A DNA stretch of 64,000 bases, taken from Siphonodentalium dalli (lineage: Eukaryota > Mollusca > Scaphopoda > Gadilida > Siphonodentaliidae). Shown in pieces: positions 3,492-61,965 of this stretch. The stretch is from contig CP136066.1 in the NCBI GenBank assembly GCA_032622095.1, positions 11,245,784-11,309,783 on the forward strand, read 5' to 3'. Below the pieces are notes generated by a model that was given only the letters and a program-made list of their open reading frames with translations, was not told the origin of the DNA and ran no database searches. How positions within the stretch are numbered: the first letter of the stretch is position 1; every line of letters starts with the position of its first letter. A program made the position numbers and the translations under genes.

Positions 3492-6400
3492 CTAGAGAAG
3501 GGAGGAAGGTATCAATATTATATAGATAATGGCTGTAACAGCCTCCCTTTGGGAGCCATAATTCATAAATGGGTCTTTGTACGCTGAGGGCCTGCGCTTC
3601 CTGCGCGTTTAGATCTTAGACTTTCCACCGGCCCCTTTGTGCACTTCTAGCGCATTTGAATCTTTTAAATATTTTGATTTAAAAAAGAGAAACAAAAAAA
3701 CAAATTTACATTTTATATTTTGAAATTTTATTTTAAATTTTTGTTTTCAGATTGAATTAAATCTAACATTTTTAATTGAAGTGTTTTCAATTAATTCTGG
3801 CTTGATCTAGACAATGTTCAAATGAATATGGGCAGTTTAGTTTCTCAGAATAATGCAGAATGAATTTTAACATACAACAATCTGAAATAAATAAATGAGT
3901 GATTTGTTCACTTATATGTAGGTGCTGGCAGCGGTGTCATGCGTAGCAGGGGACTGAACTCTATATGGAGCTATGCCTTCAGTCACATCATAAGTCACCC
4001 GAATGAGTAAACGATGCACTTATAACTCACAGAATGAGTAAACGATGCACTTATAACTCACCCGAATGAGTAAACGATGCACTTATAACTCACCCGAATG
4101 AGTAAACGATGCACTTATAACTCACAGAATGAGTAAACGATGCACTTATAACTCACCCGAATGAGTAAACGATGCACTTATAACTCACCCGAATGAGTAA
4201 ACGATGCACTTATAACTCACCCGAATGAATAAACGATGCACCTAAACTCACCCGAATGAGTAAACGATGCACTTATAACTCACCAGAATGAGTAAACGAT
4301 GCACTTATAACTCACCCGAATGAGTAAACGACGCACTTATAACTCACCCGAATGAATAAACGATGCACTTATAACTCACCAGAATGAGTAAACGATGCAC
4401 TTATAACTCACCCGAATGAGTAAACGATGCACTTATAACTCACCCGAATGAATAAACGATGCACTTATAACTCACCCGAATGAATAAACGATGCACTTAT
4501 AACTCACCCGAATGAATAAACGATGCACTTATAACTAACCAGAATGAGTAAACGATGCACTTATAACTCACCCGAATGAGTAAACGATGCACTTATAACT
4601 CACCCGAATGAATAAACGATGCACTTATAACTCACCCGAATGAATAAACGATGAACTTATAACTAACCCGAATGAGTAAACGATGCACTTATAACTCACC
4701 CGAATGAATAAACGATGAACTTATAACTAACCCGAATGAGTAAACGATTCACTTATAACTCGCACGAATGAGTAAACGATGCACTTATAACTAACCCGAA
4801 TGAGTAAACGATTCACTTATAACTAACCCGAATGAGTAAACGATGCACTTATAACTCACCCGAATAAGTAAACGATGCACTTATAACTCACCCGAATGAA
4901 TAATCGATGCACTTATAACTCACCCGAATGAATAAACGATGCACTTATAACTCACCCGAATAAGTAAACGATGCACTTATAACTCACCCGAATGAATAAT
5001 CGATGCACTTATAACTAACCCGAATGAGTAAACGATGCACTTATAACTCACCCGAATAAGTAAACGATGCACTTATAACTCACCCGAATGAGTAAACGAT
5101 GCACTTATAACTCACCCGAATGAATAAACGATGCACTTATAACTCACCCGAATGAATAAACGATGCACTTATAACTCACCCGAATGAATAAACGATGCAC
5201 TTATAACTCACCCGAATTAATAAACGATGCACTTATAACTCACCCGAATGAGTAAACGATGCACTTATAACTCACCAGAATGAATAATCGATGCACTTAT
5301 AACTCACCCGAATGAATAATCGATGCACTTATAACTCACCCGAATGAATAAACGATGCACTTATAACTCACCCGAATGAGTAAACGATGCACGTATAACT
5401 CACCCGAATGAGTAAACGATGCACTTATAACTCACCCGAATGAGTAAACGATGCACTTATAACTCACCCGAATTAATAAACGATGCACTTATAACTCACC
5501 CGAATGAGTAAACGATGCACTTATAACTCACCCGAATGAGTAAACGATGCACTTATAACTCACCAGAATGAATAAACGATGCCCTTATAACTCACCCGAA
5601 TGAATAAACGATGCACTTATAACTCACCAGAATTAACAAACGATGAACTTATAACTCACCCGAATTAATAAACGATGCACTTATAACTCACCCGTATTAA
5701 TAAACGATACACTTATAACTCACCCGAATGAGTAAACGATGCACTTATAACTCACACGAATGAGTAAACGATGCACTTATAACTCACCCGAATGAGTAAA
5801 CGATGCACTTATAACTCACCCGAATGAGTAAACGATGCACTTATAACTCACCCGAATGAATAATCGATGCACTTATAACTCACACGAATGAATAAACGAT
5901 GCACTTATAACTCACACGAATGAGTAAACGATGCACTTATAACTCACCCCAATGAATAATCGATGCACTTATAACTCACCCGAATGAATAAACGATGCAC
6001 TTATGACTCACCAGAATGAATAAACGATGCACTTATAACTCACCCGAATGAGTACACGATGCACTTATAACTCACCCGAATTAGTAAACGATGCACTTAT
6101 AACTCACCCGAATGAGTAAACGATGCACTTATAACTCACACGAATGAGTAAACGATGCACTTATAACTCACACGAATGAATAAACGATGCACTTATAACT
6201 CACCCGAATGAGTAAACGATGCACTTATAACTCACCCGAATGAGTAAACGATGCACTTATAACTCACCCGAATGAGTAAACGATGCACTTATAACTCACC
6301 CGAATGAATAATCGATGCACTTATAACTCACCCGAATGAATAAACGATGCACTTATAACTCACCCGAATGAATAAACGATGCACTTATAACTCACCCGAA

Positions 6401-9400
6401 TTAATAAACGATGCACTTATAACTCACATGAATGAGTAAACGATGCACTTATAACTCACCCGAATGAATAAACGATGCACTTATAACTCACCCGAATGAA
6501 TAAACGATGCACTTATAACTCACCCGAATGAATAAACGATGCACTTATAACTCACCCGAATGAGTAAACGATGCACTTATAACTCACCAGAATGAATAAA
6601 CGATGCACTTATAACTCACCCGAATGAGTAAACGATGCACTTATAACTCACCCGAATGAGTAAACGATGCACTTATAACTCACACGAATGAATAAACGAT
6701 GCACTTATAACTCACCCGAATGAGTAAACGATGCACTTATAACTCACCCGAATGAGTAAACGATTCACTTATAACTCACCCGAATGAGTAAACGATGCAC
6801 TTATAACTCCCCCGAATGAGTAATCGATGCACGTATAACTCACCCGAATGAATAAACGATGCACTTATAACTCACCCGAATGAGTAAACGATGCACTTAT
6901 AACTCACCAGAATGAATAAACGATGCACTTATAACTCACCCAAATGAATAATCGATGCACTTATAACTCACCAGAATGAGTACACGATGCACTTATAACT
7001 CACCAGAATGAGTAAACGATGCACTTATAACTCACCCGAATGAATAAACGATGCACTTATAACTCACCCGAATGAATAAACGATGCACTTATAACTCACC
7101 CAAATGAATAATCGATGCACTTATAGCTCACCCGAATGAGTACACGATGCACTTATAACTCACCCGAATGAATAATCGATGCACTTATAACTCACACGAA
7201 TGAATAAACGATGCACTTATAACTCACCCGAATGAGTAAATGATGCACTTATAACTCACCAGAATGAGTAAACGATGCACTTATAACTCACCCGAATGAA
7301 TAAACGATGCACTTATAACTCACCCGAATGAATAAACGATGCACTTATAACTCACACGAATGAATAAACGATGCACTTATAACTCACCAGAATGAATAAA
7401 CGATGCACTTATAACTCACACGAATGAATAAACGATGCACTTATAACTCACCAGAATGAATAAACGATGCACTTATAACTCACACGAATGAGTAAACGAT
7501 GCACTTATAACTCCCCCGAATGAGTAAACGATGCACTTATAACTCACCCGAATGAATAAACGATGCACTTATAACTCACCCGAATGAGTAAACGATGCAC
7601 TTATAACTCACCAGAATGAATAAACGATGCACTTATAACTCACCCAAATGAATAATCGATGCACTTATAACTCACCAGAATGAGTACACGATGCACTTAT
7701 AACTCACCAGAATGAGTAAACGATGCACTTATAACTCACCCGAATGAATAAACGATGCACTTATAACTCACCCGAATGAATAAACGATGCACTTATAACT
7801 CACCCGAATGAGTACACGATGCACTTATAACTCACCCGAATGAGTAAACGATGCACTTATAACTCACCCGAATGAATAAACGATGCACTTATAACTCACC
7901 CGAATGAATAAACGATGCACTTATAACTCACCCGAATGATTAATCGATGCACTTATAACTCACACGAATGAATAAACGATGCACTTATAACTCACACGAA
8001 TGAATAAACGATGCACTTATAACTCACCAAAATGAATAAACGATGCACTTATAACTCACCAAAATGAGTAAACGATGCACTTATAACTCACATGAATGAG
8101 TAAACGATGCCCTTATAACTCACCCGAATGAATAATCGATGCACTTATAACTCACATGAATGAGTAAACGATTCACTTATAACTCGCACGAATGAGTAAA
8201 CGATGCACTTATAACTCACCCGAATGAATAATCGATGCACTTATAACTCACCCGAATGAATAATCGATGCACTTATAACTCACCCGAATGAGTAAACGAT
8301 TCACTTATAACTCGCACGAATGAATAAACGATGCACTTATAACTCACATGAATGAGTAAACGATGCACTTATAACTCACCAGAATGAATAATCGATGCAC
8401 TTATAACTCACCAGAATGAATAAACGATGCACTTATAACTCACCAGAATGAATAAACGATGCACTTATAACTCACCCGAATTAATAAACGATGCACTTAT
8501 AACTCACCCGAATGAGTAAACGATGCACTTATAACTCACCCGAATGAATAAACGATGCACTTATAACTCACCCGAATTAATAAACGATGCACTTATAACT
8601 CACCCGAATGAATAAACGATGCACTTATAACTCACCCGAATTAATAAACGATGCACTTATAACTCACCCGAATGAATAAACGATGCACTTATAACTCACC
8701 AGAATGAGTAAACGATGCACTTATAACTCACACGAATTAATAAACGATGCACTTATAACTCACCCGAATGAGTAAACGATGCACTTATAACTCACCCGAA
8801 TGAGTAATCGATGCACTTATAACTCACCCGAATGAATAAACGATGCACTTATAACTCACACGAATTAATAAACGATGCACTTATAACTCACCCGAATGAG
8901 TAAACGATGCACTTATAACTCACCCGAATAAATAATCGATGCACTTATAACTCACCAGAATGAATAAACGATGCACTTATAACTCACCAGAATGAATAAA
9001 CGATGCACTTATAACTCACCAGAATGAATAAACGATGCACTTATAACTCACCAGAATGAATAAACGATGCACTTATAACTCACCCGAATAAATAATCGAT
9101 GCACTTATAACTCACCCGAATTAATAAACGATGCACTTATAACTCACCCGAATGAGTAAACGATGCACTTATAACTCACCAGAATGAGTAAACGATGCAC
9201 TTATAACTCACCCGAATGAGTTAACGATGCACTTATAACTCACCAAAATGAATAAACGATGCACTTATAACTCACCAGAATGAATAAACGATGCACTTAT
9301 AACTCACCAGAATGAGTTAACGATGCACTTATAACTCACCAAAATGAATAAACGATGCACTTATAACTCACCAGAATGAATAAACGATGCACTTATAACT

Positions 9401-12400
9401 CACCCGAATGAGTAAACGATGCACTTATAACTCACCCGAATGAGTTAACGATGCACTTATAACTCACCAAAATGAATAAACGATGCACTTATAACTCACC
9501 AGAATGAATAAACGATGCACTTATAACTCACCAGAATAAATAATCGATGCACTTATAACTCACCCGAATGAGTAAACGATGCACTTATAACTCACCCGAA
9601 TGAATAATCGATGCACTTATAACTCACCCGAATGAATAATCGATGCACTTATAACTCACCCAAATGAATAATCGATGCACTTATAACTCACCCGAATGAG
9701 TAAACGATGCACTTATAACTCACACGAATGAGTAAACGATGCACTTATAACTCACCCGAATGAATAAACGATGCACTTATAACTCACCCGAATGATTAGA
9801 CGATGCCCTTATAACTCACCCGAATAAATAATCGATGCACTTATAACTCACCCGAATGAGTAAACGATGCACTTATAACTCACCCGAATTAATAAACGAT
9901 GCACTTATAGCTCACCCGAATGAGTAAACGATGCACTTATAACTCACCCGAATGATTAGACGATGCCCTTATAACTCACCCGAATGAATAAACGATGCAC
10001 TTATAACTCACCCGAATGAATAAACGATGCACTTATAACTCACCCGAATGAATAAACGATGCACTTATAACTCACCCGAATGAATAAACGATGCCCTTAT
10101 AACTCACCCGAATGAATAATCGATGCACTTATAACTCACATGAATGAGTAAACGATGCCCTTATAACTCACCCGAATGAATAAACGATGCACTTATAACT
10201 CACATGAATGAGTAAACGATGCCCTTATAACTCACCCGAATGAATAATCGATGCACTTATAACTCACATGAATGAGTAAACGATTCACTTATAACTCGCA
10301 CGAATGAGTAAACGATGCACTTATAACTCACCCGAATGAATAATCGATGCACTTATAACTCACCCGAATGAATAATCGATGCACTTATAACTCACCCGAA
10401 TGAGTAAACGATTCACTTATAACTCGCACGAATGAATAAACGATGCACTTATAACTCACATGAATGAGTAAACGATGCACTTATAACTCACCAGAATGAA
10501 TAATCGATGCACTTATAACTCACCAGAATGAATAAACGATGCACTTATAACTCACCAGAATGAATAAACGATGCACTTATAACTCACCCGAATTAATAAA
10601 CGATGCACTTATAACTCACCCGAATGAGTAAACGATGCACTTATAACTCACCCGAATGAATAAACGATGCACTTATAACTCACCCGAATTAATAAACGAT
10701 GCACTTATAACTCACCCGAATGAATAAACGATGCACTTATAACTCACCCGAATTAATAAACGATGCACTTATAACTCACCCGAATGAATAAACGATGCAC
10801 TTATAACTCACCAGAATGAGTAAACGATGCACTTATAACTCACACGAATTAATAAACGATGCACTTATAACTCACCCGAATGAGTAAACGATGCACTTAT
10901 AACTCACCCGAATGAGTAATCGATGCACTTATAACTCACCCGAATGAATAAACGATGCACTTATAACTCACACGAATTAATAAACGATGCACTTATAACT
11001 CACCCGAATGAGTAAACGATGCACTTATAACTCACCCGAATAAATAATCGATGCACTTATAACTCACCAGAATGAATAAACGATGCACTTATAACTCACC
11101 AGAATGAATAAACGATGCACTTATAACTCACCAGAATGAATAAACGATGCACTTATAACTCACCAGAATGAATAAACGATGCACTTATAACTCACCCGAA
11201 TAAATAATCGATGCACTTATAACTCACCCGAATTAATAAACGATGCACTTATAACTCACCCGAATGAGTAAACGATGCACTTATAACTCACCAGAATGAG
11301 TAAACGATGCACTTATAACTCACCCGAATGAGTTAACGATGCACTTATAACTCACCAAAATGAATAAACGATGCACTTATAACTCACCAGAATGAATAAA
11401 CGATGCACTTATAACTCACCAGAATGAGTTAACGATGCACTTATAACTCACCAAAATGAATAAACGATGCACTTATAACTCACCAGAATGAATAAACGAT
11501 GCACTTATAACTCACCCGAATGAGTAAACGATGCACTTATAACTCACCCGAATGAGTTAACGATGCACTTATAACTCACCAAAATGAATAAACGATGCAC
11601 TTATAACTCACCAGAATGAATAAACGATGCACTTATAACTCACCAGAATAAATAATCGATGCACTTATAACTCACCCGAATGAGTAAACGATGCACTTAT
11701 AACTCACCCGAATGAATAATCGATGCACTTATAACTCACCCGAATGAATAATCGATGCACTTATAACTCACCCAAATGAATAATCGATGCACTTATAACT
11801 CACCCGAATGAGTAAACGATGCACTTATAACTCACACGAATGAGTAAACGATGCACTTATAACTCACCCGAATGAATAAACGATGCACTTATAACTCACC
11901 CGAATGATTAGACGATGCCCTTATAACTCACCCGAATAAATAATCGATGCACTTATAACTCACCCGAATGAGTAAACGATGCACTTATAACTCACCCGAA
12001 TTAATAAACGATGCACTTATAGCTCACCCGAATGAGTAAACGATGCACTTATAACTCACCCGAATGATTAGACGATGCCCTTATAACTCACCCGAATGAA
12101 TAAACGATGCACTTATAACTCACCCGAATGAATAAACGATGCACTTATAACTCACCCGAATGAATAAACGATGCACTTATAACTCACCCGAATGAATAAA
12201 CGATGCCCTTATAACTCACCCGAATGAATAATCGATGCACTTATAACTCACATGAATGAGTAAACGATGCCCTTATAACTCACCCGAATGAATAAACGAT
12301 GCACTTATAACTCACATGAATGAGTAAACGATGCCCTTATAACTCACCCCAATGAATAATCGATGCACTTATAACTCACCCGAATGAGTAAACGATGCAC

Positions 12401-15400
12401 TTATAACTCACCCGAATGAATAAACGATGCCCTTATAACTCACCCGAATGAGTAAACGATGCACTTATAACTCACCCGAATGAATAAACGATGCACTTAT
12501 AACTCACCCGAATGAGTAAACGATGCACTTATAACTCACCCGAATGAATAAACGATGCACTTATAACTCACATGAATGAGTAAACGATGCCCTTATAACT
12601 CACCCGAATGAGTAAACGATGCACTTATAACTCACCCGAATAAATAATCGATGCACTTATAACTCACCCGAATGAGTAAACGATGCACTTATAACTCACC
12701 CGAATAAATAATCGATGCACTTATAACTCACCCGAATTAATAAACGATGCACTTATAACTCACCCGAATAAATAATCGATGCACTTATAACTCACCCGAA
12801 TGAGTAAACGATGCACTTATAACTCACCCGAATAAATAATCGATGCACTTATAACTCACCCGAATGAGTAAACGATGCACTTATAACTCACCCGAATAAA
12901 TAATCGATGCACTTATAACTCACCCGAATTAATAAACGATGCACTTATAACTCACCCGAATGAGTAAACGATGCACTTATAACTCACCCGAATAAATAAT
13001 CGATGCACTTATAACTCACCCGAATTAATAAACGATGCACTTATAACTCACCCGAATAAATAATCGATGCACTTATAACTCACCCGAATGAGTAAACGAT
13101 GCACTTATAACTCACCCGAATAAATAATCGATGCACTTATAACTCACCCGAATGAGTAAACGATGCACTTATAACTCACCCGAATAAATAATCGATGCAC
13201 TTATAACTCACCCGAATGAGTAAACGATGCACTTATAACTCACCCGAATAAATAATCGATGCACTTATAACTCACCCGAATTAATAAACGATGCACTTAT
13301 AACTCACCCGAATGAGTAAACGATGCACTTATAACTCACCCGAATGAATAAACGATGCACTTATAACTCACCCGAATGAATAAACGATGCACTTATAACT
13401 CACATGAATGAATAAACGATGAACTTATAACTCACCAGAATGAGTAAACGATGCACTTATAGCTCACCCGAATGAGTAAACGATGCACTTATAACTCACC
13501 CGAATGAATAAACGATGCACTTATAACTCACATGAATGAATAAACGATGCACTTATAACTCACCCGAATGAATAAACGATGCACTTATAACTCACCCGAA
13601 TGAATAAACGATGCACTTATAACTCACATGAATGAATAAACGATGAACTTATAACTCACCCGAATGAGTAAACGATGCACTTATAACTCACCCGAATGAG
13701 TAAACGATGCACTTATAACTCACATGAATGAATAAACGATGAACTTATAACTCACCCGAATGAGTAAACGATGCACTTATAACTCGCACGAATGAATAAT
13801 CGATGCACTTATAACTTACCCGAATGAATAAACGATGAACTTATAACTCACCCGAATGAGTAAACGATGCACTTATAACTCACCCGAATGAGTAAACGAT
13901 GAACTTATAACTCACACGAATGAGTAAACGATGCACTTATAACTCACCCGAATGAATAAACGATGCAGTTATTCTTCGCGATTGCATACTTGTCCTCTGC
14001 ACAAACCTCCCATCCTCCATCGTCAAGTTTGCCGAAACGGTACTTCCGCCTGCACGGGATCTCTATTGCGTCAACGAAACTGAAATAAGGGTGCGGTCGC
14101 TCGATGTAATACTACACGTCTAATGCGGGTGCGGTCGCTACTACACGTCTAATAAGGGTGCGGTCGCTCTATGTAATACTACACGTCTAATAAGGGTGCG
14201 GTCGCTCTATGTAATACTACACGTCTAATAAGGGTGCGGTCGCTCTATGTAATACTACACGTCTAATAAGGGTGCGGTCGCTCTATGTAATACTACACGT
14301 CTAATGTATATGGTATAAGGGTGCGGTCGCTCTATGTAATACTACACGTCTAATGTATATGGTCATTGTGATATTCAGTCCAATCTTTAATCAATTAATC
14401 ATTAACCCTTTACCCAACAGAATGGCCCTGTGCCAATGCATTCTCTTATATATGCGAGTCGACCATAGGTCGCCTCGCATATATAAGAGAATGCATTGGC
14501 TTAACACATTAAAAATTATAAAATTGTTAAAGAATGTAAGAAAAAATGGTAAAAAGTGTTAAAAAAAGATTGTTTTTAGGCCAATGCATTCTCTTATATA
14601 TGCGAGGCGACCTATGGTCGACTCGCATATATAAGAGAATGCATTGGCACAGGGCTTAACTGTAACTATCACAATGTGGTCAAGGAGCCGGTTCCAATGA
14701 TATCCATATTTGTATGGTTCTATTGAGACAGACCAAAGATATTTTAGGCTGTTGAAGCTTTATTTGGCCGGTTTTGGCCGTTTTGTTTGGTAAAGGGTTA
14801 ATATAATATAATATGTTTATTTGCACAATACTAAATGAATCATTGACAAAACATCAAAAAAAATTATCTTATTGTACATGAGCAGTATGACCTAGGTGTT
14901 CGTCTTCCTGTCGTCCCTATATAAACAGTGCAATATGAAATGAGATGGCATAATGTACAATAATTATACACGGAATATGGGATATTTGGTAGGTCGGTTG
15001 GTGTATACGTTAACTCGTTTTAGGCCTAGTTCACACAGCTTGGAAATCGAGAAGGGTAGATATTCAGGTATTGATGCAGATAAAAGATTGCGCGAATTAT
15101 GTAAACTAGAAGTTGGAGACGAGCAGCACTTCGTGATGAAATGTCCAATGCTGGAGAATGTGCGCAAGCATCTTTTGACTCAAATAATAAATAAATATCC
15201 CAATGTCAAGGTACTAGATGTCAGCAATAAGTTCATATAGTTCATGACCTCCGAGGACACCTCTGTAATGAAATGGCTGGTTCATTTATACTGATATCGC
15301 TATTTTCTGCTAGGTCCCTAATTCTGACTGACACTCCAGCAAGCAAAGTTTGAGGAAAAACCATTACCTTGGCATACACACGCTGCAAACCTTTATTATC

Positions 15401-18400: not shown

Positions 18401-21400
18401 TGTTTTGTTTTACAATTTTTTAAAATTTTAATAAATTTTATTATATTCTTTAACAGACTTATTGTGTAGGTTTAGGGCCGATAATATCGGCCCCTGCCAC
18501 TCAAAGGGTTAAGAACATTCTGAAAACATCTGATATCTGATATAAAAAATAAGGGAACCAAAGGTGGGGAGAACAATATACGTGCTAAGAAATTTTGCTC
18601 ACACGTTGGCTTCTCATTTAAAACCTTCCAATTAAATTACCCCCATCAACAGAAGATCAGTTTAATTTGTGAAAAACCTGTTTTGCAAACAACGGGATTT
18701 CTGTATATAAAGAAACACCTCGTTTTGGAGTAAAATTGCTTGCTAGAATTGCATACCGCCACAGTGTCTAGCATAAAGTCTGATGTGCTGGAAATGGTAA
18801 ACCCAACTGTGGGTTCTGTGGGATTCCACCCCCCGCCGCCATTTCACAAAAGAATACGGTATATTTTTATCTGACAAAAGTATATTATTTCAACATGAGA
18901 AGGTCTATCCATGTATGAATACCACACCAGTCGATACTATAAGTTACAGGGCGAGTTGTTGCCGGATACGGTGTCATATGAGGCGAAGTGAGATTAATAT
19001 CGGGCGAGGCACTAACCGAGCCCGATATTAATCTCGCTGAGCCTCATGTCGCCGTAGCCGTCAACAAAGAATCGTGTAACGATTTTATCATGCTTTCCAG
19101 GTGAGAATTTTGATTACTTGTGAAAAATTCAGTAATCTAGTAAGTTAAATGTGTCGTCTATGGCCATTAACTTATGTCACATCACAGTGACGCGCCATGG
19201 GCGTTGAACGTCAACGCATTGAGTCAATAGTTATAATAATAGGACAAACAAGAAATTCAATTAATTGAGGAAAAACACCCACTGTCCCGAGTGGTAATGA
19301 TAAGCTATTGGGGGGTCTACTAGTTCGCATACAAAATAGCAAAATAACATTGAATGTCTCAATGACATCAACAGCTTGAAGATGGGAATAACCCACCATA
19401 TATGGTAGATATTCAACCAGGCTCTGCTTAAGTTTGTTAATTGATGACTGATGTACATGTACAATACACACAAATAGTAATAACGATTAACGTTATGATT
19501 TTGAAACTAACCATGATAGAATATTGACAGTAAGGTGGTATTAACTACTACGAGTACTATTAGTAACAATAGTACTACTTTTCTAGCATAACTTATGTGT
19601 ACATGATGTACCATATTAATGGACAAAACAATAGTTACAATACAATTATAACAATTTCTTTTAATTAAGCGCAAGAAGAGCTAATTGTGCTTAAGCGCAA
19701 TATGGGAATCTCTATTGTGCTTAAGCGCAATATGGAAGTATTTAACTGTGTTACCACAGCAGAATTATTGGTAATTTTTCAGGATTTAAAATCCTGAAAA
19801 ATTACCAATAATTCTGCTGTGGTTAAGTGATCAATTACTTTGGACATTACTGTATGTGGATTGAGTTATCATTAAACCTCAAATCCTTCTATTGGTTACA
19901 GTAATGCCCAAAGTAATTGACCACTTAACCACAGCATAATTATGGGTAATTTTTCAGGATTTAAAATCCTGAAAAAATACCCATAATTCTGCTGTGGTTA
20001 AGTGATCAATTACTTTGGACATTACTGTATGTAGATGGAGTTAAACTCACATCAGCGTGTTGGGAATTTGGACCTTGACTTCGGACCTTTGGTTTTTAAC
20101 GCAACAAATGCGCGTACACCTTATACACAAATTTCTTATGTAGCCAGAGTTTTTCTTGGATAAGATGAGTTTGAAGCCTGCTTACATTTCAAAATGTTGT
20201 CAGTTTTGTATTGTCTGCAGCGGAACTCGGCGTGTTGAAGCAAAAGTCACAAGAGATAAAATGTGTATGTAACGAGACTATAATACAAATGAAAAAATAA
20301 ATTGAGGGAGGGGTGGGCGATACAGGGAACTAAGGGTTGAACCGATATAAATTTGTAGAGCGATAACGACCAATGTTGACATATTATGCATCTCAACTAT
20401 ACCGTTGAAACAAGGCTATAAAATAGGGTGGGGGTGTCAGAATCTTAGTTGGGTTGGTTATATGGACTCGGAGAAAAAGGGGTTCGTACCGATGAACTGA
20501 CAAAAATTAGTGGAGCGATGTTGCCATGTAATGCATCGCGACTGTACTAAAGCAGCAATGATATAAAATTGGGGGGGGGGGGGGGTCTGATATTATCTCT
20601 ATCTCTATAGATGGCACCAGGATTATATAGAAAGGAATAGCAATTGATATACGTATATGGTATACAATAGTAATACCATAGACATATAAGTACAAGTATC
20701 ACGCGATAAAATATTACATAACATGACTATAGCGATGAAAAAAAAAATTGGACCGGGATTAGAGGTTGGGTTGGTTATATATGGATAATTGGATATGGAA
20801 TTCATACCGATGAAACGATACAAATTAGTGGAGCGATAAAGACCAATGTTGACACTTAGTCAGGCTACGAAGGGAAAATAGCGGTTGATACGATAGACCG
20901 AAATAAATTTGTCGGGTGATAATGACCAATGTTGATGTATAAAGTAACGCGACTGTACTGTCGCCAGGGATGGATCCAGGAATTTTTTGGGGACATTTAC
21001 CATAAAAAAAAGATTACCGTCAGCTTTATAAACAGACTCTATAAAAAATGCGCGAAACGTAATTCGAACAGGCATGACGTCACGAATATCTAAAACTTGG
21101 TGGTGTTGTTCATTTCATTTTAGAAAGCAATCAATTACAAACTATTGTACGACAAAAATATCAGAGATCCTTCTCTTTTTGTAGTTTGATGACGAAAAGT
21201 TTAATTTGGCCATTTTCGAAAAATGACATAAAATGCGGGGTAACTTTCTTATTATGTCTATGCGAAAACCGGCTCGTGAAATTTCAGTTATCTGTCTACA
21301 AGAAAATATTGTGCCATTAATTCCCTATCTTGGGGAAACCTTGCCTCAGCTGACCATGGACTACTATGGAAATTTACACATGTCTTACCTGAGGTAGACG

Positions 21401-24400
21401 TCTTTGATATTCTTACCTGATGTAGACGTCTTTGATATTCTTACCTGAGGTAGACGTCTTTGATATTCTTACCTGATGTAGACGTCTTTGATATTCTTAC
21501 CTGAGGTAGACGTCTTTGATATTCTTACCTGAGGTAGACGTCTTTGATATTCTTACCTGAGGTAGACGTCTTTGATATTCTTACCTGAGATAGACGTCTT
21601 TGGTATTCTTACCTGAGATAGACGTCTTTGATATTCTTACCTGAGGTAGACGTCTTTGGTATTCTTACCTGAGGTAGACGTCTTTGATCTTCTTACCTGA
21701 TGTAGACGTCTTTGATATTCTTACCTGAGGTAGACGTCTTTGATATTCTTACCTGAGGTAGACGTCTTTGATATTCTTACCTGAGGTAGACGTCTTTGAT
21801 ATTCTTACCTGAGGTAGACGTCTTTGATATTCTTACCTGAGGTAGACGTCTTTGATCTTCCCTTCTGGAATCATTGACACGTTCATCTTCCCATTTTGAA
21901 CATATTTCTTGTATAGGAAGTCTGTGAGATAATCTCGAGAGTCTCTGGCAGCGACGTTTCTCGCCGCATTAGTAATAACGCGCAACTGCAATATAAGAAA
22001 TACAAACAGGTCAGTGGACTGTACTAAATGGCGACAGTACACTAAAACCGGTCATTTATGGTACCATCTCCTATTATAATAAACATAATGTATGCAACAA
22101 ATGAATTAATTTGAGCCACGTATGTGTGCAAAATACACTCATGTGCTCTATGAACGATGCAAACAACATGGGAAATATAATAAAAATGAGTTCATGGCTC
22201 TAGTCACAAACTCATTACATGTCCCCATACTGTGAAACATTATCTAAATGAGTGTATATGCCATTATATATATACGTGTTATATACCATGTGTTATAAAA
22301 ATTGACAAAATAAATATGATTAAACTATATAATATATTATATATACTATAGTGATACTGTTGCTGGTTGGAACCTTCGAATGTACAGTGGGGTATCCACC
22401 ATACATAACAATAATTCAATGTTGTGCTAACATGTATTCCCTTTCAAGTACAGAGCAACTATTTCACAAAAGCTGATCGATTAAGTGTGTGGCATTTAGA
22501 TATAATAGAGGATAAAACAGGATTTCCAAAATAGAACAAAACACACATTTTGTTGTCAGTATGACACCATGCTGCGTGAGGTCAACTATACTACGTCTCG
22601 ATAAAATATTCATCTTGTCACGTTATCAACATCCCGGGACAGTATACGACCTTGGTCGGTCACAGCCTTCGGATATTATAGTCGGTCACCAAAGGTTAGG
22701 TAAATATTATGTTTCTTATTTGCAAGCCGTTTGTATTTTATGAATGGTCCGCGGCCGTGTGTGTAGTGGTGTATAGATAGAGCCAGCCGTTTTGTGAATG
22801 GTCCGCGGCTTCAAGCCGTTTTTATTTGTGAATGGTCCGCGGCTTCAAGCCGTTTTTATTTGTGAATGGTCCGCGGCTTCAAGCCGTTTTTATTTGTGAA
22901 TGGTCCGCGGCTTCAAGCCGTTTTTATTTGTGAATGGTCCGCGGCTTCAAGCCGTTTTTATTTGTGAATGGTCCGCGGCTTCAAGCCGTTTTTATTTGTG
23001 AATGGTCCGCGGCTTCAAGCCGTTTTTATTTGTGAATGGTCCGCGGCTTCAAGCAGTTTTTATTTGTGAATGGTCCGCGGCTTCAAGCCGTTTTTATTTG
23101 TGAATGGTCCGCGGCTTCAAGCCGTTTTTATTTGTGAATGGTCCGCGGCTTCAAGCCGTTTTTATTTGTGAATGGTCCGCGGCTTCAAGCCGTTTTTATT
23201 TGTGAATGGTCCGCGGCTTCAAGCCGTTTTTATTTGTGAATGGTCCGCGGCTTCAAGCCGTTTTTATTTGTGAATGGTCCGCGGCTTCAAGCCGTTTTTA
23301 TTTGTGAATGGTCCGCGGCTTCAAGCCGTTTTTATTTTGTGAATGGTCCGCGGCTTCAAGCCGTTTTTATTTTGTGAATGGTCCGCGGCTTGTGAATGGT
23401 CCGCGGCTTCAAGCCGTTTTTATTTATGAATGGTCCGCGGCTTCAAGAGATTATCATACTGTTTATTTATGAATGGTCCGCGGCTTCAAGAGATTATCAT
23501 ACTGTTTATTTATGAATGGTCCGCGGCTTCAAGAGATTCTCATACTGTTTATTTGTGAATGGTCCGCGGCTTCAAGCCGTTTTTATTTGTGAATGGTCCG
23601 CGGCTTCAAGCCGTTTTTATTTGTGAATGGTCCGCGGCTTCAAACCGTTTTTATTTGTGAATGGTCCGCGGCTTCCAGATCATCAAGCCGTTTTTATTTG
23701 TGAATGGTCCGCGGCTTCAAGAGATTATCATACTGTTTCTGTAATTTCCTTTCCTTACCAACCTTCGCATAAAGACCGTGTGTGTAGTGGTGTATAGATG
23801 GAGTCATAAAGACCGTGTGTGTAGTGGTGTATAAATGGAGCCATACAGACCGTGTGTGTAGTGGTGTATAGATGGAGTCATAAAGACCGTGTGTGTAGTG
23901 GTGTATACATGGAGCCATAAAGACCGTGTGTGTAGTGGTGTATAGATGGAGTCATAAAGACCGTGTGTGTAGTGGTGTATAGATGGAGCCATACAGACCG
24001 TGTGTGTAGTGGTGTATAGATGGAGCCATAAAGACCGTGCGTGTAGTGGTGTATAGATGGAGCCATAAAGACCGTGTGTGTAGTGGTGTATAGATGGAGC
24101 CATAAAGACCGTGTGTGTAGTGGTGTATATATGGAGCCATAAAGACCGTGTGTGTAGTGGTGTATAGATGGAGCAATAAAGACAGTGTATGTAGTGGTGT
24201 ATAGATGGAGCCATAAATACCGTGTGTGTAGTGGTGTGTATATATGGAGCCATACAGACCGTGTGTGTAGTGGTGTGTATATATGGAGCCATACAGACCG
24301 TGTGTGTAGTGGTGTATAGATGGAGCCATAAATACCGTGTGTGTAGTGGTGAATAGATTGAGTCATACAGACCGTGTGTGTAGTGGTGTATAGATGGAGC

Positions 24401-36400: not shown

Positions 36401-39400
36401 GGGTGAGACACCCCCCACACCCCCCCCCCTATAGCCACATCCATGGAGCCTGTGTAGCTCGGAGTATTGTCGCTGACTCTGTGACTGTGTTATTGCCAGC
36501 AGTATTTGATAAAATTGAAGAGATCTGTTTTGTTTGGACAGCATTCATTTTGGAGTAGTTCAACAAACTGTTTACATTCTTGTGTCCTGACACTTGGATT
36601 ATCTGATGCGGTGGTACATTTTCATCGTTAAGTGACTGGACCAGCAGTTTTCGACAACACATATAATTTTGTAACGACTTTGGGTTATATGGTCCAAGAA
36701 CTTGCGCCCCATAAAATCGTTCAACATCATCTTGAGTAATCGGATCTGCTTCAAATGGCTTATTGCCCTCTCCTATATATTTCAGTTGTTTCTGTTTGCT
36801 TTTCAGAGTTTCACGACATGATGCAAACTGATGATCACTTGTGACAGAAACTGGATATGACCGCATCCTGAGGTATCGATCAAGTGAGGACATGAACGCT
36901 CGAAGTGACAGTGGGTCATATTCAGTTCCATCTTTCTTCCGCACAGATAGGAGGAAACTTGATATATGCCCACACAGAACGTCTGGGGGATGAACTCGGG
37001 CTGCCTCTGTTCATCTTTACTTAGCAGAAATGTTCTAAAGAGTTTAATATGATATTCACTTTTGTTAACAGTATTTTTATTTCTTTGTTGGTCATTTAAT
37101 TGAGATACTTCGTCATCAGTTACATTTATAAATCTGGAACTTACAGTGGAAGTTGAAGGCAATGGCAATTTTGGCAATGCAGCAGCTGAGGCAGAGGCTG
37201 AATTCAGTTGTGAGCTTGAACTTGAACTTGAACTTGAAGTTGAAGCTGCAGGAAACTGCTGGTCAAATATAGAGTCACTATTCATGTGTTGTACATGTGT
37301 AATTATCCAGCTTGGCATATCTAATATGACTTATATTCATTATATTTAGCTAATTTTTCCATTATAGAGTCCCAAAACACATCGCCCTCTACGTCTATTT
37401 CAAATCCGTCTTCCATATTGTACTTGACGAATGACGTTGCTAATGTAAACAGGCGTCTGTAATGTAGTTAAGGGGGAGATACTCTAATCTCACGCGCAAA
37501 AGTGCAAATAGTCCGTATCGCTTCAGGCGCATGAATATCGATTCAAAATTTAACGACATTACAAGTCATTCGCCCCGATTGGAGCTAGCGTTTAATATAA
37601 GGAAGCTAGCGTGTAATATAAGGAAGCTACCATGTAATATACGGAATCTACAGTGGAATATAACGTTGGCGCACAGTTGGACGATCGACTAGCGAAATAT
37701 AGCTTTCTATGCGAACAAGAAATCAATATAATTTAATAGGGAAGCATATAATAAAATGACTTATTTCGAGAAGTGATGTAATCTAGACAACCAAGTTGAA
37801 TGCCATCTGGGGTAAAAAAGGTTCTACCCAAAGCGGATTTTAGATATGTTGTTCCTGTTTGGACATTTGTGAATGATTTTGACACCAAAATCGCCTCACT
37901 AACAATTTGTTCTAGGTTGACCCTGCATTTTTACTTCAACGCCCAGACTACTATATTGGGGTGAACAGTTGCACATGTACAACACGTGAATTTTAGTCAT
38001 ATTAAATATCATGCCAAGCTGGATAATTAAACATGTACAACACATGAATATAAGTCATATTAGATATCATGCCAAGCTGGATAATTAATATAAGTCGTAT
38101 TGGATATCATGCTAAGCTGGATAATTAATATAAGTCATATTGAATATCATGCCAAGCTGGATAATTAATATAAGCCATATTGGATATCATGCCAAGCTGG
38201 ATAATTAATATAAGCCATATTGGATATCATGCCAAGCTGGATAATTAATATAAGCCATATTGGATATCATGCCAAGCTGGATAATTAATATAAGCCATAT
38301 TGGATATCATGCCAAGCTGGATAATTAATATAAGTCATATTGGATATCATGCCAAGCTGGATAATTAATATAAGCCATATTGGATATCATGCCAAGCTGG
38401 ATAATTAATATAAGCCATATTGGATATCATGCCAAGCTGGATAATTAATATAAGCCATATTGGATATCATGCCAAGCTGGATAATTAATATAAGCCATAT
38501 TGGATATCATGCCAAGCTGGATAATTAATATAAGCCATATTGGATATCATGCCAATCTGCATAATTAATATAAGCCATATTGAATATCATGCCAATCTGC
38601 ATAATTAATATAAGCCATATTGGATATCATGCCAAGCTGGATAATTAATATAAGCCATATTGGATATCATGCCAAGCTGGATAATTAATATAAGCCATAT
38701 TGGATATCATGCCAAGCTGGATAATTAATATAAGCCATATTGGATATCATGCCAAGCTGGATAATTAATATAAGCCATATTGGATATCATGCCAATCTGC
38801 ATAATTAATATAAGCCATATTGAATATCATGCCAATCTGCATAATTAATATAAGCCATATTGGATATCATGCCAAGCTGGATAATTAATATAAGCCATAT
38901 TGGATATCATGCCAAGCTGGATAATTAATATAAGCCATATTGGATATCATGCCAAGCTGGATAATTAATATAAGCCATATTGGATATCATGCCAAGCTGG
39001 ATAATTAATATAAGCCATATTGGATATCATGCCAAGCTGGATAATTAATATAAGCCATATTGGATATCATGCCAAGCTGGATAATTAATATAAGCCATAT
39101 TGGATATCATGCCAATCTGCATAATTAATATAAGCCATATTGAATATCATGCCAATCTGCATAATTAATATAAGCCATATTGGATATCATGCCAAGCTGG
39201 ATAATTAATATAAGCCATATTGGATATCATGCCAAGCTGGATAATTAATATAAGTCATATTGAATATCATGCCAAGCTGGATAATTAATATAAGCCATAT
39301 TGGATATCATGCCAAGCTGGATAATTAATATAAGCCATATTGGATATCATGCCAAGCTGGATAATTAATATAAGTCATATTGGATATCATGCCAAGCTGG

Positions 39401-51343: not shown

Positions 51344-53083
51344 ATGGCCCGAAAACAAGAACTAATTGAATACGTAGAAGAAAACAAAAGAGACATACTC
51401 AGTCAACGAAACAAAACTAGACAACGACATTAAATTCACATTTCCCGGCTTTAATACACATAGAAAAGACAGATCCTCCGCGGGAGGGGGGGTTAGGTCG
51501 CAATACTAGTTAGACACCACATAAAATACACACTTATCAACACGTCACAACTTACAGACGAAATCATAGCAATAGAAATGACTATCAGCAACAGAAAAAA
51601 ACAGCTATAATCTCCCTATACGTACCACCGTGCAAAACTCCCCCTCAACTTGCAACGTTCAAATACTTTACAGACAAATTCAAAAACTGCATCTTTCTGG
51701 GAGACCTTAACGCAAAACACATTATTTACAAATGCAGCAAAACTAATCCCTACGGGGACGCACTTTTCAACATAATCGAAGACCAAGAACTAATATTACT
51801 CAATAACAAAGGCATCGCAACTCACCACGGCATAAAATCCAAATCATGGGACATGTTAGACTATGCCATAGCCATGCCATCAATTGCAAAAACAATACAC
51901 AAATGCAAGATAGGATTCGATATAGGGAGTGACCACTATCCAGTCGAACTCTACATAACAAACGCAAAACCACAACACAACAAAGATACTCTCAATAGAA
52001 ACCTTAGAAATGCAGATTGGGACAAATTTAGGGAACTCATTAACTTAAACATCGACAATACAGAAATAAACACTCCCAATGACATCGAAATGGCAGCCAA
52101 ATCAATATCCGACATTATTAAGGATGCCATTGACACAGCATGCCCAAAAAAGAAAATAAAGCAAAACACATGGAGAGTATCACGGGAAACATTAGAATTA
52201 ATTCACCTCAAACGCAAAAGATGCAGACTAATGCAAAAACACACAAAAGACATCGAATACAGAACCATGTACAACAACATAACAAGACAAGTAAACAAAG
52301 CAGTTAAACGGGGAAAAGGGAATCATGGGAACGGGTAACCACTGAACTTGGGGAAAGGCAATTAGATGGGAAATTTTGGAAAACATTCAAGGTATTAACT
52401 GGCCAAGCCACCTCAAACAACAATGACAAACCACTCAAAGACGAAAACGACGAATCATTCACAAACAACAAAGACAAAGCAAAAATTTTCGCGACATCAC
52501 TTCAAAATATACACAAAACCCACACAGGGGACCAATCCAGCGAAAAGTTCAGAAAAGAGGTAATTGAATATGTAAGACAAAACAAATACATTCGTACACT
52601 TAAAATCACCCATACCTGAGGCAGACGATAAACACACATTAGCAACTCCCATTACACCACTAGAAATCCAAGACTGCCTTAAGCGAGCCAAACCAAACAA
52701 AGCCCCGGGTGATGGCGAATTAACATTTGGAATAATCAAACAGGGCCCAAAATCAATGTTCGACAGACTAGAACTTATAAATGTTTACAACACGGCTACT
52801 CCCCAAAAAAGACCATAAAATAGCTACCAATTTTAGACCCATCAGCTTACTTCAATGTTTGGGAGAACTTTTCGAACGAATCATCAGCACTAGAATATTA
52901 ACTCACCTAGAGAACCAACACTTTTTCAATAAATTCCAACGTGCATATCGTAAAGGCAAAGAGGGAACCGAACATATATTTTACAGAATAGTAGAAGATT
53001 TGTGCCTCCATCCCAGAGATCTAGTATATTTTATAAAAAAGAGACATATCTTGCACAGATCTATACCACTTCCATGGTCATAA
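51344..53083 (+). pseudogene. Decayed Jockey-type LINE ORF2 (endonuclease + partial RT)
   Basis: A first Met (51344) starts MARKQELIEYVEENKRDIL, then a frameshift leads into NETKLDNDIKFTFPGF. The endonuclease continues with LYVPP, GDLNAKH (51699) and SDHYPV (51928), the metal-binding and catalytic motifs of the APE-like endonuclease of non-LTR elements. The linker and the RT start are spread over several frames: KPNKAPG (52690), then FRPISLLQCLGELFERIIS (52831). It stops near 53080, before the YADD box, so the catalytic half of the RT is missing. At least three frameshifts and stops are present. Plus strand, opposite to the METTL24-like gene. Clade assignment (Jockey-like) is tentative. Confidence 0.8.
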
Positions 53084-53279
53084 AAGAGATCTTGGGGCTA
53101 CTGGGGGATTGCTTCCCTCATATGGTGGGCCTATATAGACTTTAGTGATGTGTTTAGACCTGTGCCATTTAAATTTAAATCAGGGTGGATCAATGCATAT
53201 AAATTTTTTATTTGTGCTTAAGCGCAAATCATTTGCGCTTAAGCATAAATGATATGCTCTTAAGTGCTTCGAACTAATT

Positions 53280-54010
53280 ATATATTCAAATACTATGAAG
53301 TTAGGTTCATAATTGTTGTGTTCCCACCTGTTGTGTGTGTCCATTTGGAAACACACTGTTACTGAAATAGATTTCACACATAAAGACAGAAGTGTCTTTA
53401 ACTGGGGACATTTCAACTTTCAGAACTATTTTATATATTCAAATACTATAAAGTTAGGTCCCCAGTTGTCGTGTTTGCACCTGTTGTGTGTGTCCTCAAT
53501 TGGAAACACACTGTTACTTAAATAGATTTCACACATACAGACAAAAGTGTCTTTAACTGGGGACATTTCAACTTTCAGAACTATTTTATATATTCAAATA
53601 CTATAAAGTTAGGTCCCCAGTTGTCGTGTTTGCACCTGTTGTGTGTGTCCTCAATTAGAAACACACTGTTAATGAAATAGATTTCACACATAAAGACAGA
53701 AGTGTCTTTAACTGGGGACATTTCAACTTTCAGAACTATTTTATATATTCAAATACTATAAAGTTAGGTCCCCAGTTGTCGTGTTTGCACCTGTTTTGTG
53801 TGTCCTCGATTGGAAACACAATGTTAATGAAATAGATTTCACACATAAAGACAGAAGTGTCTTTAATTGGGGACATTTCAACTTTCAGAACTATTTTATA
53901 TATTCAAATACTATAAAGTTAGGTCCCCAGTTGTCGTGTTTGCACCTGTTGTGTGTGTCCTCAATTGGAAACACACTGTTAATGAAATAGATTTCACACA
54001 TAAAGACAGG
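53280..54010. repeat. 155-bp tandem repeat, about 4.7 copies
   Basis: Marker 'aagttaggtc' at 53451, 53606, 53761 and 53916 (period 155), with a diverged first unit at 53298. Units include 'gtccccagttgtcgtgttt' and 'gatttcacacataaagacag'. The last unit breaks exactly where the rDNA-like sequence starts. Left of it, 53212-53262 has 'gcttaagcgcaa' repeats. Confidence 0.92.
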
Positions 54011-54690
54011 ACCTTCAAGATTCGAGCGAGGCGGGCTTCTTACCCATTTAAAGTTTGAGAATAGGTTTAGGACGTTCCGTCCCAAATGCCTCTAATCATT
54101 CGCTTTACTGGATAATCATGCTTGCGTGTATGAGCGCCATGCAGCTATCCTGAGGGAAACTTCGGTGGAACAAGCTACTAAACGGTTCGATTAGTCTTTC
54201 GCCTCTATACCCAAGTTTGACGATCGATTTGCCCGTCAGAATCGCTGCGGACTTCCACCAGAGTTTCCTCTGGCTTCGTCCTACTCAGGCATAGTTCATC
54301 TTCATCTTTCGGGTCCCAACGTGCTCGCTCTTGCTCGGCCTCGCCTGCCCCGCCAAACGAGGAGATCGACACCGGCGGGTGACCGGTGGTGCGCCACGAA
54401 GCTTGCGAAGCAGACGCGGATCCAACCTCGGCTAGCGCTCCGAGAGCGGCCTTCACTTTCATTGCGCCTTCGGGTTAGCGATTAGCGACACTCCTTGGTA
54501 CGTGCTTCAATACGGCCATCGTGCTCGGGATCCCACCGCCCAGAGACCCGAAGAGAGCGGTTGACCGGCAGCCCGCAAAGCTGAGCTTCCGGTCAGTCGT
54601 GACTCCCTCCGGCAGACAGACGACCGGCACGAAGGTGTGCGGTCCTCGATCCCGCCGACGATCGGCCGTCGAACGGAGACCGCGAGGACC
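54011..54690 (-). pseudogene. 28S rRNA fragment (D2-D3 region)
   Basis: On the minus strand the sequence is recognisably large-subunit rRNA: 'accaaggagtgtcgc', 'gcaatgaaagtgaaggcc', 'agaggaaactctggtgg', 'tttccctcaggatagctgc', 'agcgaatgattagagg' and 'tttaaatgggtaagaagcc'. Small differences from conserved positions (for example ggataatcc-type changes) and missing bases suggest a pseudogene. 54531-54690 is probably the variable D2 segment. The left end abuts the 155-bp repeat. Confidence 0.85.
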
Positions 54691-54820
54691 AAAATTCGGC
54701 CCCGAGATATAACTACGAGCTTTTTAACTGCAACAACTTTAATATACGCTATTGGAGCTGGGATTACAGCGGCTGCTGGCTCCAGACTTGCCCTCCAATT
54801 GATCTTCGTTAAAGGGTTTT
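54691..54820 (-). pseudogene. 18S rRNA fragment
   Basis: On the minus strand: 'ttaacgaagatcaattggag', 'gccagcagccgctgtaatcc', 'tccaatagcgtatattaaag' and 'gcagttaaaaagctcgtagt', the region before V4 of 18S rRNA. The universally conserved 'cgcggtaattcc' is altered (cgctgtaatccc), supporting a pseudogene. It is joined directly to 28S D2 sequence without ITS or 5.8S. Confidence 0.88.
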
Positions 54821-55530
54821 TCACATATAAACAGTAATTTAAAACCGCATCTCTGATAAGAACCAATGGCCTCATCAGAATGGTTCAAATGGACCATTAA
54901 CAGTTCTCAATGGGTTTTCAGATGGTTGTATTTCTCGGCAGATGATTTGAGCTTTCACTTCGCTTATTTCTCAAAATACATACAATGCATAATCTCTGGC
55001 TCGATACTAAATGAAGCACTATGTTAATGAAACTGATAAACAATTTGGGGTCCCATGAAATAATTAATTGGTCGTGTAGAGTTAATCATTGTACTGATAT
55101 ATATTCCATCAGTATGTTTTAACAAGATACAAAGAATTTCAACGGAGTGTGCTATCAATATAAATGCACGGGGAATACATCTCATCTGTGCCCATTTAGG
55201 TATCGTGATACATACACATAGACCCTGTCCCCAGTTGAATACCTCTGTCGGTGTGTATTGCACGTCCTCGTTTTATCTCATATGAACACTCTGTGTGTCT
55301 TGTCCTCAGTTTAATTTCCGTGTACAGTTCAGAGTGTGAACCTGGTGTGTCCCCACTATGTACTCACAGAACACATGGAACAAATCTCTTTATAACCATT
55401 AACCAGATACAGAAGAATTATCTATCAGGTGAACGTTTGACGAATTGAGCACTCGAAATCACAACACTCATTTTTTGTGAGGTCCTCATTTGTGATGGTT
55501 CCAAGAGATGTCCGCGTTTGACACCATAAA
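54821..55530. other. Flank with scattered 'gtccccagtt' motifs
   Basis: 'tgtccccagttgaat', 'tgtcctcagtttaat' and 'gtgtgtccccac' recur at 55220-55360, reminiscent of the 155-bp repeat unit. No gene seen. Confidence 0.4.
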
Positions 55531-60879: not shown

Positions 60880-61965
60880 TTGGGTTAGAATAAAAAGTAA
60901 CCAATCATTGGGTAATGGTAACCCAACTTTGTTCCTAAACGTTGGATTAAATTAACTAAACATGGGGTTAGAAAAACCCGACGTTGATATATAAAATTAT
61001 ATTTCATCATCAATGTATGAGTTTTTACCATATAATCTGAGATTCTGATCATAATTAAGTTTTCCCAAAATAAGTCCAATTTATGGATTCATTTCTTACC
61101 TCTGAATAGATGAGGGATATTGAATTAAACCAGACTTCGAACCTATAGTATACAATATGAAAGTCCGAAACGTAACATATAATGACTTCCTTTTCGGGAA
61201 TAAATTACCAACCTATAGCAAAGAATATTGTACCAAATACACAAGCAATACTATAACTAAATCATTCCGACATAACAGATGCCTTCCTCTTGTATTTATT
61301 TGATGTAAACAGTATTTATTCCATATAATTCAAATACAGTATATGTTACAAAATATGAATCATGAATATTGGTTTATGGAGGGGATCCGACATAAAGCTT
61401 ATGGGGGTCGTTCCGATAACGTGTGAATAAGCCCACACTGTGAGAATGATAACATTATATTAGGTAATTGTGTTAATAATAATTTTCGAAGATCGTTGCT
61501 GGTATATTTGTTACTCAGCTACTCACAGTGTGGGCTGGATCGATAGATATATTTTTCTTATGGAATAATAGAAAGAAATTGATTGAAAATAGATTTAGTA
61601 TAGCGGAACGAAGTATAGATCGGTATAGACAATAGTGTGAGGTGACATATCAAACGTTTGTGTGAGTCTGATATGCAGTATAGGGAGGGGGTGGGGAGTG
61701 TAAATGATAAGCTATTGCTTTTAATTTCTACACTAATTTTGTGTTCTGGCCTATCATTTTTGCATTTGTATTTATTTGATTTTGATACCAATAAAGAGAA
61801 GAGAATATGACAAGAGAGTTCACATCCAGCAAATCTTTATCAAGGGGCGGAACTGAACACCAGTGATTATTAACTACACTGGTCTTACCCAACAATTGAA
61901 CCCATCTTCTTGAATTTTACCCAACCATTAACCCAACTTTGGATAACCCAACAATTTTGACTAAA
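60880..61965. other. AACCCAAC clusters and one inverted repeat
   Basis: AACCCAAC-type motifs at 60880-60990 and 61870-61965. A 15-bp inverted pair AGCCCACACTGTGAG (61430) / inverse (61522-61536) brackets about 75 bp. No gene recognised between. Confidence 0.5.

Follow-up and report, generated by a model that had tools for sequence, protein, structure and literature searches.

The window analysed here, a stretch of 64 kb, carries on its minus strand a METTL24-like methyltransferase gene. Exons 2-4 of this gene join into an open frame without a stop, the 119-aa product matches the Pfam family Methyltransf_22 (PF13383) over residues 56-118 (E 7.7e-11; 42.5 bits at a cut-off of 22.4), and the nearest named proteins are METTL24-like and mostly from molluscs (69 matches, some of them nameless). 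The exons are the following, a slash marking the exon-intron boundary.

42618-42508, minus strand: candidate exon 1, 37 aa with a hydrophobic anchor and a phase-0 donor, AAG/GTAGGC; hypothetical, without homology support
21985-21837, minus strand: exon 2, 149 nt, phase-2 end at CAG/GTAAGA
14079-13948, minus strand: exon 3, 132 nt, ending CIVYSFG in phase 2; best tblastn match 1.9e-13, with P0025
3491-3417, minus strand: exon 4, 75 nt, GVAGDWSFDDAIEKYYACEIHSFDP, donor GAG/GTAAGA

The tail of exon 2, VYLS, corresponds in the alignment to residues of the LYHSY type in METTL24 homologues, and the donor G of exon 3 is at 13947, so that exon end and donor lie exactly where the original prediction had placed them. 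The acceptors assigned by homology, at 14080 for exon 3 and at 3492 for exon 4, are separate for the two introns, and intron 3, with its 10,456 nt, is almost wholly array. The candidate exon 1 is the one locus that passed a scan upstream of exon 2, in which a frame starting with ATG had to contain a hydrophobic segment and have a phase-0 donor; TRF shows no array over its donor at 42507, the nearest being found at 41896-42298, and the donor of exon 4 is likewise without an array. None of 2549 tblastn matches obtained with 18 homologues falls below 3417, i.e. there is no later exon in the window, which extends 3.4 kb beyond exon 4.

The donors of exons 2 and 3 are both overlapped by tandem arrays, and a further array lies upstream of exon 3.

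3990-13972, minus strand: main donor array, 312 copies of 32 bp with the exonic one counted, unit with GTGAGT
8080-12335, minus strand: block duplication in the main array, monomers 51-117 being exactly equal to 117-183 (67 monomers at an offset of 66, or 2112 bp; coordinates derived from the 32-bp monomer step)
21383-21860, minus strand: second donor array, 17 copies of 28 bp with the exonic one counted, unit made up of the final 20 nt of exon 2 and 8 intron nt
14139-14305, minus strand: array of 4.4 copies of a 38-bp unit, lying upstream of exon 3 and continued by related sequence to at most 4 nt from the exon (by eye)

In the main array the unit combines the final 20 nt of exon 3 with the first 12 intron nt, as had been proposed: copy 0 starts at 13967, and the consensus equals the exon copy at 32/32 positions. 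The proposed number of about 312 copies holds as well, both by TRF (period 32, 312.1 copies, 93% matches) and by stepwise segmentation, which gives 312 monomers including the exonic one, spaced exactly 32 apart in 308 of 311 cases and 31 apart in the other 3. The 309 of 312 monomers that are in register differ from the consensus at a mean of 1.4 positions and fall into 54 distinct types. Most copies do keep GTGAGT in register (290/312), as the original prediction had it, but the full 9-nt donor CGGGTGAGT is intact in just 196 of the 312. At position 12 of the unit, 130 of the 312 monomers have C in place of T, a variant that is not clustered near the exon, since bins of 26 monomers hold 8-11 each in the first eight and 12-15 each in the last four. 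Because a block of 67 monomers repeats exactly, the array can be said to have grown by duplication, and the 2.1-kb block is as expected of unequal exchange, block duplication or mis-assembly.

The second array, which is absent from the original prediction, is built on the same plan around the end of exon 2. Its unit reads TCTACCTCAG/GTAAGA, CAG/GTAAGA is intact in 17/17 units, and AG and GT thus abut in every one of them behind a short pyrimidine tract, while the units of the main array read CGG/GT, without an AG before the GT. By eye, each of the two exons shares a short stretch with its intron close to the ends of the unit, AAGA for exon 2 and ATAA for exon 3, and these would fit an origin by slippage.

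Arrays are common throughout the window, where 17 merged minisatellite arrays make up 29.7 of the 64 kb (46%); one of them, with a 37-bp unit and more than 200 copies, starts at 23768. The 38-bp array and its degenerate continuation (14084-14363, minus strand) adjoin the exon 3 acceptor, with CACCCTTATT just before TCAG coming from the last copy, and exon 3 is therefore flanked by arrays on either side. Beyond this, at 14435-14645, two near-perfect palindrome copies (CCAATGCATTCTCTTATATATGCGAG...) flank an A+T-rich spacer (by eye) and look like a hairpin or a MITE pair. Large-subunit rRNA fragments (model positions 675-1124) and a weak small-subunit match, above Rfam thresholds, are found at 53997-54916 on the minus strand and adjoin an array at 53271-54009 with a repeat of 155 bp. 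On the plus strand, 61965-63860 and 51514-52338 hold frames for a LINE-type reverse transcriptase (PF00078) and endonuclease (PF14529), with best matches about 50% identical (best 120 of 7785), and two overlapping open frames at 36429-37330 on the minus strand resemble, by eye, a tyrosine-recombinase-like (Crypton-type) protein, Pfam returning no match for either.

The 20-nt tail of exon 3 encodes VYSFG, a stretch that is the same in the window and in all 18 homologues aligned, out of the 69 found. The exonic status of the tail rests on homology. Since VYSFG is invariant in the aligned METTL24 homologues, the main array derives from the exon, and the reverse order, in which the array came first and the exon later, is ruled out by the same invariance. 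Joined from the first donor, exon 3 and exon 4 read SFGVAGDWSFDD, which is also found in P0001 of Ylistrum balloti. An exon 3 that is prolonged to whichever later copy of the main array has an identical first stop right after the normal exon end (311/311), which bears out the earlier claim that later copies add an immediate stop and that the protein needs the first donor; only the first main-array donor preserves the reading frame. It should be mentioned that the stop is partly trivial, as any retained phase-2 intron starting with GTRA reads a stop. The frame thus requires a strict choice of the first donor, whose actual use is predicted from the sequence, and because both introns begin with arrays copied from the exon end and the 5' splice site, the cell must choose the first of many near-identical cut sites.

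We consider it likely that the two arrays are neutral minisatellites that were seeded on exon-intron junctions, with the first donor kept by selection on the coding sequence. Two short tandem duplications would each have copied 28-32 bp across an exon-intron junction of the METTL24-like gene, and unequal exchange or block duplication would have amplified them into minisatellites. Such growth was presumably tolerated, because whatever follows the first donor is intronic, and purifying selection acting on the protein would see to it that the first copy with its donor continues to be used. The remaining donors would then have arisen as by-products; they may recruit a certain amount of U1 snRNP to the nascent RNA, but without any selected purpose, and the likeliest route to use of the first donor would be early commitment of the exon once its acceptor and first donor have been transcribed. 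This notion is in agreement with the identity of consensus and exon copy, with the invariance of the exon tail among the aligned homologues, with the exact block repeat, with donor positions that are conserved no better than the remaining unit, with the abundance of arrays in the window and with the lack of a strong donor in 12 of 14 array units scored for U1 pairing. In that scoring, done on either strand for the units of 14 among the 17 merged arrays (in the case of a 155-bp unit over 120 bases only), only the main and exon 2 arrays reach -11 kcal/mol, the next best being -6.8.

Several observations count against it. Both donor units take exactly 20 exon nt, a coincidence that was noticed post hoc. 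Two array-seeding donors in one gene furthermore exceed random placement: with three donors the chance of at least two at an array edge is 0.0004-0.005, and given a first array-edge donor the chance of at least one further is 0.024-0.084, both computed post hoc and with the candidate exon 1 donor left out, whose inclusion would weaken them somewhat. A preference of arrays for donors is suggested by these figures but not proven. Greater accessibility of the first donor in the predicted RNA structure is ruled out, since 56 of the 59 next copies score above copy 0. Finally, of two comparable donors the intron-proximal one is favoured, for a reason given as not known (PMC6002489), and this published preference would ruin the present mRNA.

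The latter point also feeds the main rival, namely that the gene is dead or silent, so that correct splicing is not selected and the arrays grew freely; the intron-proximal preference (PMC6002489) predicts mis-splicing, and the gene may be incomplete, as the homologues find no match below 3417 in a window that ends 3.4 kb past exon 4. Exons 2-4 are nonetheless open, with compatible phases and canonical splice sites, the donor of exon 3 is the array consensus, and residues invariant in the alignment are retained over exons 3-4, and we therefore regard a dead gene as unlikely. A further reading is that minisatellites of this lineage arise preferentially at 5' splice sites. The segment duplicated (20 exon and 8-12 intron nt) would then correspond to the stretch covered by U1 snRNP, hinting at a link between occupancy of the splice site during transcription and duplication of the DNA, with splicing by strict first-donor commitment against the intron-proximal preference; taken as a whole this seems quite unlikely. 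Still less is to be said for the second array acting as a silent ratchet, in which splicing from the donor of one copy to the AG of another would restore the same donor, remove the array stepwise and leave the mRNA unchanged. The abutting AG and GT of all 17 second-array units would permit this, but the pyrimidine tract is short and the CGG/GT units of the main array offer no AG, making the proposal extremely improbable. We hold it just as hard to believe that the copy number is an artefact of assembly: mis-joining could also yield the exact 67-monomer block repeat, but the 309 in-register monomers fall into 54 distinct types, and the short 17-copy array has the same design.

The original prediction further entertained the idea that the array binds U1 snRNP in bulk, as a decoy or as protection against premature polyadenylation, and a splicing switch may be envisaged along with these. 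Sites for such a platform are plentiful according to a simple pairing model with the 5' end of U1, in which 196 of the 1201 GT sites in the main array (the real donor among them) equal or exceed the predicted pairing energy of the real donor, a level attained elsewhere by 1 of 3025 minus-strand GT sites (both donor arrays excluded) and by 1 of 4310 on the plus strand; GTRAGT hexamers on the gene strand likewise number 293 inside the 10-kb array versus 18 in the rest of the window. Furthermore, the U1 footprint is given as about 23 exon and 12 intron nt in the available text of PMC6002489, and the units of 20+12 and 20+8 nt come near to it, so adjacent copies could barely each hold a U1. The donor is however not the best-conserved portion of the unit. 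Mean diversity is 0.090 at positions -3..+6 against 0.060 elsewhere (p 0.30), and among the 309 monomers the donor window ranks 8/32 in conservation when taken as 6 nt and 21/32 when taken as 9 nt (8 and 23 over the 54 distinct types), while the lower diversity of the 12 intronic than of the 20 exonic nt (0.013 vs 0.102, p 0.10) is neither significant nor specific to the donor. Selection on the main-array donors is thus not seen by diversity or window ranks, and bulk binding of U1 as a function finds no support in them. Protection against premature polyadenylation fares no better, as the sense strand of the main array holds no AATAAA or ATTAAA, and the remainder of intron 3 just one AATAAA. 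The antisense (plus) strand of the array has AATAAA 147 times, which we take to follow incidentally from the coding sequence, and U1-like sites and poly(A)-like signals therefore lie on opposite strands. The main-array donors are moreover predicted to be mostly paired, but this is a weak point against a platform, because the ordinary donor of exon 4 also scores low (0.029). As for the donor hairpin, its stability does not exceed that of shuffled monomers: among 2000 mononucleotide shuffles, 67.8% come out as low as the T12 form or lower, and 28.4% as low as the C12 form or lower; the C variant at position 12 stabilises the hairpin. All in all a functional U1 platform appears very unlikely, and an origin as neutral minisatellites, with the first donor kept by coding selection, remains the reading we prefer.

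It was originally held that no satellite of this kind had been described, and this is incorrect. The human IFI6 (6-16, G1P3) minisatellite reportedly supplies multiple splice donor sites, according to Turri et al. in 1995. As described in PMC4526556, two downstream repeat units of IFI6 serve as donors and give rise to three mRNA species. It is the closest known case of a donor minisatellite. There as here, units repeated in tandem over an exon-intron junction bring a donor each, the 312 and 17 units found here having donors predicted from the sequence. The differences are that the present units of 32 and 28 bp are out of frame, as opposed to the 12-bp in-frame unit of IFI6, with a stop in 311/311 extensions into the main array, that the array spans 10 kb and that two exons of one gene are involved. 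Among the matches listed from the open-licence PMC literature, taken by titles and abstract openings, no donor-built satellite beyond IFI6 appears, and the array size, the frame-breaking units and the recurrence within one gene look new.

Splice signals are also copied by tandem duplication within a gene in the AGGT model of intron gain attributed to Rogers, examples of which are 24-bp repeats in fission yeast, ATP2A1 and the potato RdRp (PMC4974935, available text). There a new intron is made, the duplicate supplying both GT and AG, whereas here an existing intron is extended at its 5' end, the separate acceptors lie kilobases away and the main array has no AG before the GT. In exon 1 of ER-alpha a competing pseudo-5' splice site traps U1, the comparable donors being 33 nt apart (PMC6002489, available text), and the spacing near the U1 footprint is similar to ours; that case however concerns two sites of which the intron-proximal one is normally used, as opposed to 312 copies of which the most distal alone keeps the protein. 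Intronic minisatellites of C. elegans (CeRep25B) are likewise associated with splicing, a role in alternative splicing being suggested by enrichment (PMC4039745), but in the available text of that source, where the term 'splice donor' does not occur, their units are not described as copies of an exon end plus donor. Finally, a long intron with many U1-like sites is reminiscent of U1 telescripting, unlike which the main array has no sense AATAAA or ATTAAA to suppress. If splicing is correct, cells would pick the first among 312 almost identical donors that follow one another at 32 nt, and two such arrays in one gene would form a rare natural experiment setting first-come commitment against proximity in 5' splice site choice, as well as a reason to ask genome-wide whether satellites arise at exon-intron junctions.
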